A DNA stretch of 64,000 bases from Pseudomonas sp. GV071 (GTDB lineage Bacteria > Pseudomonadota > Gammaproteobacteria > Pseudomonadales > Pseudomonadaceae), in assembly GCF_003050835.1 (NCBI RefSeq), contig NZ_QAOJ01000003.1, forward strand, positions 398,081 through 462,080, read 5' to 3'. Numbering within the stretch: position 1 is the stretch's first letter; each line of letters opens with the position of its first letter. A model generated the notes under the pieces. That model was not told the DNA's origin. It did not search any database and was given only the letters and a program-made list of their open reading frames with translations. The translations under genes were made by a program, and so were the position numbers. Shown piece by piece: positions 1,534 to 4,109 of the stretch.

Positions 1534-3333
1534 ATGACTGAGCAACATATTCTGTTGGCCCTGGGTGGCATCGGTGCCGCCGCCCTCGCGTGTCAGTGGC
1601 TGGCCTGGCGCCTGCGCCTGCCGGCGATTCTGTTTCTGCTGCTGAGCGGCATTCTGGCCGGCCCGGTGCTGGGCTGGCTGGACCCGCAGGCGCTGTTCGG
1701 CGAGTTGCTGATGCCACTGGTGTCGCTGTCGGTGTCGCTGATTCTGTTCGAGGGCAGCCTGACCCTGCGCTTCAGCGAATGGAAAGAAATCGGCACGGTG
1801 GTGCGCCGCCTGGTGACGGTGGGCGCGCTGTCGACCTGGGTAGTGATTGCGGTCACCAGCCATTACCTGCTGGGCCTGGAGTGGAACCTGGCAGTGCTGT
1901 TCGGCACCCTGACACTGGTGACCGGCCCGACGGTGATCGTACCGATGCTGCGGGTGGTGCGGCCCAAAGCCTCGATCGCCAACATCCTGCGCTGGGAAGG
2001 CATCGTTATCGACCCGATTGGCGCGCTGCTGGCGGTGGTGGTGTTCAGCTACATCATCAGCAAGGACGGCGACGGGTTGCTCAGCGGCTCGGGGACCTTT
2101 TCCGGGGTGATTGCCTGCGGCGTGCTGTTCGGCCTGGCCGGCGGCTGGCTGTTTGGCCAGGTGCTGCGCCGACATTGGCTGCCGGAATACCTGCAGAACT
2201 TCGCCTCGCTGGCGGCGGTACTCGGGGTGTTTATCACCGCCAACGAAATCATGCATGAGTCCGGGCTGTTGGCCGTGACGGTGATGGGGGTGGTCCTGGC
2301 CAATATGAAAGGCGTGGACGTGAAGGAGATCCTGCACTTCAAGGAAAACCTCAGCGTGCTGCTGATTTCCGGGTTGTTCATTCTGCTGGCGGCGCGTCTG
2401 GACCTGCACGCGCTGATCGCGTTCGGCCCGGCGGTGATTCTGTTGCTGGTGGTGATTCAGTTCATTGCCCGGCCGTTGAACGTGGCGATTTCCACCTACC
2501 GCTCGCACCTGGACTGGCGCGAGCGGGCGCTGCTGGCCTGGATCGCGCCGCGCGGCATTGTCGCGGCAGCGGTGTCGGCGATTTTTGCCATCCGCCTGAG
2601 CGAAGCAGGCCATCACGGCGCCGAGTTGCTGGTGCCGCTGACCTTTGCGGTGATCATCGGCACCGTGGTGCTGCAGAGCGCCACGGCCCGACCGCTGGCC
2701 CGTCTGCTCAAGGTCGCGGAACCGGCACCCAATGGGTTTCTGATTGTCGGCGCTCACCCGCTGGCGCGAACGATTGGCAAGGCTCTGCAGCAGTTGGGCA
2801 GCCGAGTATTGCTGGCGGATTCGAGCTGGGAAAACGTCAGCGCCGCGCGCATGGACAACCTGCCCACCTACTTTGGCAACCCGGCGTCGCAACATGCCGA
2901 GGCCCATCTGGATCAGGTTGGCCTGGGCTTCTTGCTGGCACTCTCCCCGGCCGGCGAATTGAACACCCTGGCGTGTATGCGCTTTCGCCACGAGTTCCAC
3001 CGGCAAAATCTGTACGCCGTGGCCAGCGGCCTGGAGAACAAACGCAGCGACAAACACCGCGCCAGCAACGAGCACCGCGGCAACGTCTTCGCCAGCGAAG
3101 GCCTGACCTATACCAAGCTCGCCAACAAGCTCAACAAGGGCGCCGAGATTTACCACACCACCCTCACCAGCGGCTTCACCTGGGCGGACTATCAGGCCCT
3201 GCATGGCGAGCGCGCGTTGCTGCTGTTTGCCCGCGACAATCAGCACCATGTGCACGTCGCCACCCCCGCCGAAAACCTGCACCCGCTGGCCGGTTGGGTG
3301 CTGGTGGCCATGATCGACCCGCAGCCGGAATAG
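1534..3333 (+). CDS. CPA1-family cation:proton antiporter with soluble C-terminal domain
   Basis: Predicted inner-membrane Na+/H+ (or K+/H+) antiporter of 599 residues. About the first 400 residues hold 12-13 hydrophobic segments of the NhaP/CPA1 type. These include the glycine-rich SGILAGPVLGW near the start and LTLVTGPTVIVPML. The last 190 or so residues are soluble and begin with a Rossmann-like stretch (LIVGAHPLARTIGKAL) that resembles a degenerate TrkA-N/RCK domain, which in this family gates transport. The ATG at 1534 is chosen over upstream in-frame codons because GGAAAAAC lies just before it and the N-terminus then starts with a membrane helix. The ion specificity cannot be read from the sequence. 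Confidence 0.88.
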   Translation: MTEQHILLALGGIGAAALACQWLAWRLRLPAILFLLLSGILAGPVLGWLDPQALFGELLMPLVSLSVSLILFEGSLTLRFSEWKEIGTVVRRLVTVGALSTWVVIAVTSHYLLGLEWNLAVLFGTLTLVTGPTVIVPMLRVVRPKASIANILRWEGIVIDPIGALLAVVVFSYIISKDGDGLLSGSGTFSGVIACGVLFGLAGGWLFGQVLRRHWLPEYLQNFASLAAVLGVFITANEIMHESGLLAVTVMGVVLANMKGVDVKEILHFKENLSVLLISGLFILLAARLDLHALIAFGPAVILLLVVIQFIARPLNVAISTYRSHLDWRERALLAWIAPRGIVAAAVSAIFAIRLSEAGHHGAELLVPLTFAVIIGTVVLQSATARPLARLLKVAEPAPNGFLIVGAHPLARTIGKALQQLGSRVLLADSSWENVSAARMDNLPTYFGNPASQHAEAHLDQVGLGFLLALSPAGELNTLACMRFRHEFHRQNLYAVASGLENKRSDKHRASNEHRGNVFASEGLTYTKLANKLNKGAEIYHTTLTSGFTWADYQALHGERALLLFARDNQHHVHVATPAENLHPLAGWVLVAMIDPQPE

Positions 3334-3446
3334 GCGTCCGACGGCTGGCGTGAAAATGCCGGAGTCACCCTATCTTTGGGTGGGTGACAGGCCGGCATTC
3401 GGCAGCCATGATTTCAACTCGCCACTACTGCCGCCGGACGTTTGCC

Positions 3447-4109
3447 ATGGCCACTCAACAGAACTCCCGCCTCGGTCAAATACTGCTGAACAAAGGACTG
3501 ATCAGCGCCGACCAACTCGCTCAAGCCATCCAGTTACAAGCCAGCAGCCACAAACGATTGGGGGAAATCCTCATCGAGCAGGGGCTGGTCAGCGAACGCC
3601 AACTCAGCAAGGCACTGAAAAAGCAAAGTAGCCTGCGTGTTGCCGCCACCTTGGTGGCCGCCCTGCTCAGCCCGTTCCAGATGGCCAGCGCCGACCTGCA
3701 TAGGCCGGCGCCGAGCAGCCTGAGCCGGACGCTGCAGCCGCTGAATGACTCAGAGATGAGCAACGTCAGCGCCCAGGGCCTGGACGATGTGCTGCAGGGT
3801 TTGTTCCTGCAAGCCGAAAGCGGCGACGGCATCGGCACCGCCGCCAAGCTGGCAAAACTGGTGATGCCAGTGCTCAACAGCCTGGAAGCGGAAACCTCGA
3901 TGAAAGACGTGCGCTACGACACCAGCAAACTGACCTCGGTGCTCAACGCCGATGGCAGCGTGAACGTGCGCCTGCCGAGCTCCATTGGTGAACTGCGCTT
4001 CGACAACGTGCGGGTGGCGGGGGCTGGTGCGGGGCAGAGTATGGGGAGTGTGACGCTCCAAGACATCGACCTGTCGCAGGCCTCTTTACGCATCAGCATG
4101 CGGCCGTAG
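3447..4109 (+). CDS. Small MshEN-domain protein with one membrane segment and an exported tail
   Basis: A 220-residue protein. Residues 8-31 (RLGQILLNKG to AIQLQ) and 37-60 (RLGEILIEQG to ALKKQ) are two near-identical 24-residue motifs separated by five residues. This is the layout of the c-di-GMP-binding MshEN domain normally found at the N-terminus of GspE/PilB-type ATPases. Here no ATPase follows. Instead residues 64-82 form a hydrophobic segment, then about 140 residues, probably exported, carry LNDSEMSNVSAQGL, a motif I associate with pilus-related exported proteins. The start is uncertain (ATG at 3408 is also in frame; both ribosome sites are weak). Its TAG stop is the first part of a dispersed repeat. 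c-di-GMP binding is inferred from motif only. Confidence 0.8.
   Translation: MATQQNSRLGQILLNKGLISADQLAQAIQLQASSHKRLGEILIEQGLVSERQLSKALKKQSSLRVAATLVAALLSPFQMASADLHRPAPSSLSRTLQPLNDSEMSNVSAQGLDDVLQGLFLQAESGDGIGTAAKLAKLVMPVLNSLEAETSMKDVRYDTSKLTSVLNADGSVNVRLPSSIGELRFDNVRVAGAGAGQSMGSVTLQDIDLSQASLRISMRP

Follow-up and report, generated by a model that had tools for sequence, protein, structure and literature searches.

The gene at nt 3447–4109 (+ strand) of the window, that is, of the whole 64,000-nt stretch of DNA analysed, encoded a 220-residue protein, an ortholog of PA3740 of P. aeruginosa, in which an MshEN domain, a signal-peptide-like segment and a tail predicted to be exported followed one another. 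We propose, with a probability of about one half, that the MshEN domain binds c-di-GMP and, being fused to a likely Sec signal peptide, controls the export or release of the tail. The sequences contain MshEN motifs and signal-peptide-like features in close spacing, different tails behind them, and related tails that lack MshEN and have a signal-peptide-like start of their own; cleavage, the coupling of ligand binding to export, its sign and the job of the tail are inferred. The c-di-GMP receptor part is not new, since c-di-GMP binding and a swarming phenotype have already been reported for PA3740; what is new seems to be the architecture.

The MshEN domain and its relatives

The two MshEN motifs, of 24 residues each and separated by a 5-residue spacer, occupied residues 8–31 (nt 3468–3539, + strand; R8, L9, G10 to Q31; RLGQILLNKGLISADQLAQAIQLQ) and 37–60 (nt 3555–3626, + strand; R37, L38, G39 to Q60; RLGEILIEQGLVSERQLSKALKKQ), and they carried the full pattern tested, RLGxx(L/V/I)(L/V/I)xxG(L/V/I)(L/V/I)xxxxLxxxLxxQ, occurring twice with the 5-residue spacer. 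The model NF053729 (MshE-related c-di-GMP motif) matched residues 8–60 over all 53 model positions (E 9e-20) with 70.2 bits against a cut-off of 38 for the 220-residue protein, far above chance, and at E ≤ 0.001 it matched this protein only in the genome. No ATPase family, including GspE/PilB, was found among the Pfam hits at E values up to 10, and the NCBIfam PilB model matched via MshEN only (residues 9–63, E 0.006). These searches bear out the first-pass annotation, in which the N-terminal part had been read as the MshEN layout of two 24-residue motifs with a 5-residue spacer, lying outside any ATPase and making up the whole cytoplasmic part.

Chains of MshE, PilB and PilF matched the MshEN part in a PDB search with a profile of 40 homologues. 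The same part of the AlphaFold model, which was of low overall confidence, superposed on c-di-GMP-bound V. cholerae MshE (5htl_B) with an rmsd of 0.7 over 55 columns at 44% identity, the Foldseek E-value of this match being only 0.03. The two 24-residue motifs, the 5-residue spacer and the fold (5htl) are shared with the MshE/PilB-type ATPases. Isolated V. cholerae MshEN, residues 1–62, binds c-di-GMP at 0.35 uM (PMC5013675), so a domain this short can suffice.

In the alignment of the Pseudomonas family (136 rows in all, 133 covering the sites), R8, Q31, R37 and Q60 were each present in 132/133 rows and both motif arginines were kept in 132/133, the single exception being P0126, a eukaryote-labelled gene model. 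In P0126 a Pseudomonas segment and tail stood behind an unrelated N-terminus, probably as a result of contamination. Among 34 non-redundant members collected more widely, namely the 47 proteins described below and three from protein searches, reduced at 70% identity, R8 was present in 32/34, Q31 in 32/34, R37 in 20/34 and Q60 in 34/34. Homologues without the RLG arginines, which in the first-pass annotation had counted against binding, therefore occurred at the margin of the family: the first arginine was replaced in a few, by Met in Duganella and by Cys in Serpens (L102) and one Pseudomonas sp., and the second was absent from 14 of the 34, with Lys in 4 of these 14. Together with two relatives carrying tandem MshEN domains (L235 and L236), in which some motifs lacked the arginine and MshEN was partly degenerate, these losses would suit a passive N-terminal extension, comparable to the extended signal peptide regions of autotransporters, in which MshEN merely slows folding or targeting and many members retain c-di-GMP binding only as a vestige. 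We regard this as very improbable, because R8, G10, Q31, G39 and Q60 were each present in at least 32/34 members and peptides of PA3740 bind c-di-GMP (PMC8789108); the counterparts of these five residues have been named as binding residues (PMC5013675).

The P. aeruginosa homologue (P0089) shared 69% identity and the same architecture with the protein described here. PA3740 has been presented as a swarming motility protein containing MshEN associated with a previously uncharacterised domain, and its LxxxLxxQ stretch as a c-di-GMP-binding motif (PMC5013675). The peptides found to bind were octamers, with LKKALKKQTNLR as the putative motif, so that the evidence, known via citing papers, concerns linear peptides (PMC8789108); the stretch corresponds to residues 53–64 here and ends at R64, where the likely signal peptide begins. 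In other published passages PA3740 is aligned as an MshEN example (PMC9765702), called "probably functional" (PMC12943098), found to be up in a relA spoT mutant (PMC7122816), placed at -1.35 in a motAB motCD table (PMC3174259), and called a PilZ protein whose deletion left the biofilm unchanged in one setting (PMC8335546). A signal peptide is not mentioned in these passages on PA3740, nor is MshEN joined to a signal peptide described in the passages of literature naming both. Outside the pilus ATPases, MshEN also occurs in the inner membrane protein NfrB of E. coli, whose model matched the protein here via MshEN. In NfrB, unlike the protein here, MshEN lies C-terminal to a glycosyltransferase, joined by two putative helices, and a fragment with MshEN (residues 414–745) was purified soluble (PMC8669469).

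The hydrophobic segment between MshEN and the tail

R64 (nt 3636–3638, + strand) lay four residues past Q60 and was followed by the signal-peptide-like segment of residues 65–82 (nt 3639–3692, + strand), with a hydrophobic core at 65–74, P76, and A80-S81-A82 at its end. The end reads ASA|D, with Pro76 six residues ahead of Ala82, and by rule the segment had the features of a Sec signal peptide, namely a positive n-region, a hydrophobic core, a helix breaker and small residues at -3 and -1, with a predicted signal peptidase I site at A82|D83; the assessment was based on the (-3,-1) rule and not on a trained predictor. Thus, of what the first-pass annotation had described, the single hydrophobic segment and the likely export of the tail hold, whereas the plain membrane segment gives way to a signal-peptide-like one. 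In the Pseudomonas-family rows covering the sites, P76 and A82 were present in 133/133 and A80 in 123/133, and 133/133 combined Ala at -1 with a small residue at -3. P76, F77 and Q78 were kept in 134–135 of all 136 rows, and the conservation of the segment inside Pseudomonas exceeds what an ordinary signal peptide would need.

A (-3,-1) site 5–11 residues past the position of P76 was present in 34/34 members below 70% identity, compared with a mean of 17.1 and a largest value of 26 in 2000 shuffles; a test with a wider window separated less (34 real versus a mean of 28.5). P76 was kept in 32/34 of these members and R or K at position 64 in 34/34; because the 34 were collected with profiles containing the segment, selection accounts in part for their common R/K64, P76 and Ala. 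In the MshEN ATPases (n = 68, redundant; 26 at 70% identity), in contrast to the protein here with its R64 and P76 and without an ATPase, the position +4 after the last Gln was never R or K and was Pro in 51, and Pro at +16 occurred in 1/68.

A search of genome contigs with segment and tail gave 61 loci. One of these, L101 of Pseudomonas boanensis, carried an apparently broken gene copy, as did genome G086. With L101 and L103 set aside, 57/59 loci carried both RLG motifs, the last Gln and R64, the two others being L092 and the Serpens locus with Cys for the first Arg. The tail was present in 56/298 genomes and 6/19 genera of the family, one copy being broken. L103, from Noviherbaspirillum autotrophicum, encoded a 154-residue protein with the same type of tail (type A, see below) behind a plain N-terminal signal-peptide-like start, and inspection of the DNA revealed no MshEN in its reading frame. 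A protein search with L103 gave 14 hits, comprising six MshEN-less proteins, a single Duganella protein that has MshEN, and sequences of the Pseudomonas type; by reading, the protein sequences of the six (135–157 aa) resembled L103, although the start of P0140 was shortened. Because the MshEN-less homologues begin with an ordinary signal peptide, the segment corresponds to one. That the hydrophobic segment is a Sec signal peptide rather than a plain anchor is well supported by these comparisons, and signal peptidase I would likely cut after A82.

The first-pass annotation had taken the protein for a minimal receptor that could pass a cytoplasmic c-di-GMP signal across the membrane. In such a bitopic one-component receptor, the main rival to export control, the segment would be an uncleaved transmembrane anchor and c-di-GMP binding inside would alter the state of the periplasmic tail. 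AlphaFold drew a single continuous helix over residues 50–82, of low confidence, with pLDDT dropping from 64 to 32 along it; the spacing between domain and segment, constant in most members, would suit helix-to-helix signal transfer, and an anchor is also favoured by how very strongly Pseudomonas conserves the segment. Against it stand the signal peptidase I-compatible site in 34/34 distant members and 133/133 Pseudomonas-family rows, and the MshEN-less homologues beginning with the same kind of signal peptide. A transmembrane receptor is therefore unsupported as stated, since its halves must stay joined, yet the segment bears the conserved marks of a cleavable signal peptide, and we consider this reading somewhat improbable.

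For control of export, the preferred reading, the following course may be envisaged. The preprotein would be made in the cytoplasm, and its c-di-GMP-bound MshEN would keep the signal peptide on the cytoplasmic side of the membrane, or delay it there, although the sign could be opposite. The tail would then cross through Sec, signal peptidase I would likely cut after A82, and the tail would be freed in the periplasm or beyond, while a short MshEN-signal-peptide stub would stay in the membrane. The last MshEN helix, carrying Q60, was predicted, with falling confidence, to run into the positive start of the signal peptide (K58, K59, R64); ligand binding and export would thus likely compete or be coupled via one charged stretch. 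In autotransporters and TpsA proteins, extended signal peptide regions provide a long cytoplasmic extension before the signal peptide, and to our knowledge none of these has a ligand-binding fold, whereas the extension here is a domain of the c-di-GMP-binding type.

The unit in front of different tails

With the family profile, a class-wide search matched 153/274 genomes, many via the MshEN of ATPases. It added four loci with MshEN leading into a signal-peptide-like segment; the tail was of type A in L114 and of other kinds in L115, L116 and L117. The profile of MshEN plus segment gave 51 matches (E ≤ 1e-18) in 45/390 genomes of the order; that all 51 reached model position 78–91 is partly selection, because such a threshold favours matches spanning the segment. 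The 47 proteins read consisted of 44 of the 51 matches and L115–L117, five matches from Pseudomonadaceae and two 98-aa frames of G1250 and G1283 being left out. At the phylum level, 9 matches among those listed spanned the segment at E ≤ 3.3e-25; one frame of ATPase size (G888) likewise extended to position 86, and the other listed matches mostly stopped near 55–69.

Because these profiles contained the segment, a search with the MshEN model alone was run in 244 genomes of the order, and 43 matches were listed in frames of up to 402 aa. By eye, 35 of the 43, a redundant set, ran directly into a signal-peptide-like segment, 30 of them found before and 5 new (L234, L235, L236, L239 and L241); the rest were three ATPase pieces (L229, L230 and L232) and five other continuations (L231, L233, L237, L238 and L240). 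As R/K at +4 was present in 3/5 and Pro at +15 or +16 in 2/5 of the new members, the R64/P76 signature is common, not universal. The tandem MshEN domains of L235 and L236 preceded a signal-peptide-like segment, behind which a short tail ended in LNIVKRF. In L239 (G1026:C138:1-1400), MshEN was followed by a lipobox, LVAC|G, and by a tail that, by reading, contains an FN3-like stretch; this lipobox would be cut too, which argues against an uncleaved anchor.

The tail of the protein here, residues 83–220 (138 residues; nt 3693–4106, + strand), is predicted to be exported and belongs to type A, which is remotely DUF6160-like. Sorted by eye, the 34 members comprised 22 tails of type A, 8 of type B, 2 of type C, one of type D (L117) and one of type E (L212). 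Type B tails were short, ended in an aromatic residue and formed a loose group; those of L195, L199, L200 and L207–L211 finished in a short hairpin-like stretch with the final aromatic residue, reminiscent, in sequence only, of an outer-membrane strand. By hhalign, type C resembled type A (probability 98), whereas types B and D had no similarity to it (0.1 and 5); the tail of L212 had a sub-threshold FN3 match, and six genomes contained both type A and type B. The unit thus stands in front of several different tails: remotely DUF6160-like ones, short ones with no relation to these, and one whose gene adjoins those of a fimbrial chaperone and usher (see below). In a tree of MshEN (54 columns), types A, B and C formed one group with two ATPases, while the other 24 ATPases were joined by L117 and L212, so the fusions of L117 (fimbrial) and L212 (FN3-like) may be independent. 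The MshEN-signal-peptide unit may accordingly have several origins; this tree did not reject a single one for the 34 members (p 0.40).

Membership of the tail in DUF6160 (PF19657) was considered and rejected, as the scores, 16.8 bits for the full length and 18.4 bits for the tail alone, were below the gathering cut-off of 27. Residues 88–110 aligned with the model at this sub-threshold score, and the tail motif LQPLNDSEMSNVSAQG (residues 96–111; nt 3732–3779, + strand) covered most of them. A 34-row tail profile gave a probability of 94 over 45 columns against DUF6160, the reversed control giving 3; pairwise BLAST with the DUF6160 proteins P0137/P0138 was weak (E 0.076), and comparisons of small profiles gave probabilities of 17 and 7. 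The likeness to the exported DUF6160 proteins is thus remote, lying at both ends of the tail and below the Pfam cut-off. P0137 and P0138, both of this genome, had plain N-terminal signal-peptide-like starts and no MshEN. Elsewhere in this genome, four matches to the DUF6160 model, two of them above the cut-off, lay within 3 kb at L010 (G000:C13:1-20000), and L011 (G000:C3:300000-312000) encoded a DUF6160 exported protein with neighbours that we take to be MalT-like regulators, a C39-peptidase-like gene and a FadL-like protein.

The tail also had a conserved C-terminal block, residues 174–218 (VRLPSSIGELRFDN...MGSVTLQDIDLS...; nt 3966–4100, + strand), and in 40 Pseudomonas rows L176-P-S-S, G181-E and I207-D-L were invariant. 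Two AlphaFold jobs aimed at the tail fold gave mean pLDDT values of 50 and 53, and the PDB profile search with the whole alignment gave one weak tail match, 3rwx (E 0.018). Given this high conservation within Pseudomonas, the tail is more than a passive passenger.

At L220 (G487:C22:1800-10500), the gene with the MshEN-segment unit was the first of a series on one strand that included a PapD-type chaperone and a TcfC/CooC-type usher, the downstream same-strand neighbours matching PF00345 (chaperone), PF16967 and PF15976. From this gene order the L220 gene may encode a fimbrial subunit; for its tail, no fimbrial subunit domain was found in Pfam and no PDB sequence match lay below E 0.25, and there was no further case among the 9 genomes of the order of G487. 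A fimbrial subunit has to be freed by signal peptidase, and if L220 encodes one it cannot remain anchored, as a bitopic receptor would require.

Genomic context and biological meaning

The first-pass annotation had also supposed that P. aeruginosa has a gene at the same locus; besides the identity of P0089, the locus of strain PA7 (L083) supports this, an antiporter, a thioesterase and rplS adjoining the gene as in the window. At 61 Pseudomonas loci, some of which reach contig ends, tblastn placed rplS near 55/61, the antiporter near 27 and the thioesterase near 36. Among other families, flgN adjoined the gene in 13/13 loci of f172, one of which, read further, also had flgA, a CheW-receiver protein and CheR; trxB was present in 12 loci of f277 (13 rows, L213 being L174 again), and in two loci of f252 a neighbour was weakly PilZ-like, below the threshold. 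With the run of G487 included, two of these contexts involve surface structures or motility, which is suggestive only.

The genes for bifA and type IV pili, which the first-pass annotation had brought into connection with the gene, do lie in the same window, a minor-pilin-like gene and PilY1 at 34.6–41.1 kb and a GGDEF-EAL gene (BifA-like) at 47.2–49.3 kb; a PilB-like ATPase was not found within the 64-kb window by a motif script. A linkage to them was rejected as evidence, as the genes are 30–43 kb away and the neighbours elsewhere differ (rplS, flgN, trxB).

These contexts and the variety of tails also bear on a further possibility, that the membrane-bound MshEN stub left after cleavage is the real c-di-GMP effector, with the flagellum or a cyclase as a conceivable target, and that the tail only performs a separate task in the envelope. 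Different tails behind the same unit, the reported swarming phenotype of PA3740 (PMC5013675) and the adjoining flgN of f172 would agree with such a localisation tag, whereas the high conservation of the tail in Pseudomonas and the existence of genes with the same tail but without MshEN speak against it, and we hold it to be quite unlikely.

Upstream of the gene lay a conserved element, CCTATC-TTTGGGTG-GGTGACA (also written CCTATC..GGGTGACA; nt 3369–3389, + strand), and a second conserved block, CATGATTTCAACTCGCCACTA (nt 3407–3427, + strand), with the pattern CATGATTxCA..GCCA. In the upstream regions of the window and 58 loci, CCTATC was present in 54/59 and ATGATTxCA in 48/59. An AmrZ site was considered, since AmrZ and PA3740 share one published table; the pattern of the first element had one exact match in the genome, and this uniqueness argues against the site of a common regulator. 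The leader RNA (nt 3330–3450) folded unusually well (-55.4 kcal/mol, z -3.8), and the predicted leader folds of ten relatives varied. Rfam gave no match at the upstream blocks (nt 3369–3427), the sole Rfam match being far under the cut-off and elsewhere.

Adhesion and motility are controlled by c-di-GMP at many levels, and the targets of c-di-GMP known to us are transcription, RNA, assembled machines and enzymes. If export control as proposed here is true, a receptor embedded in a signal peptide region would allow c-di-GMP to act on individual proteins at the stage of their export. A testable role would then also be available for PA3740, the other part of which was an "uncharacterised domain" in 2016, and for dozens of small unnamed proteins.
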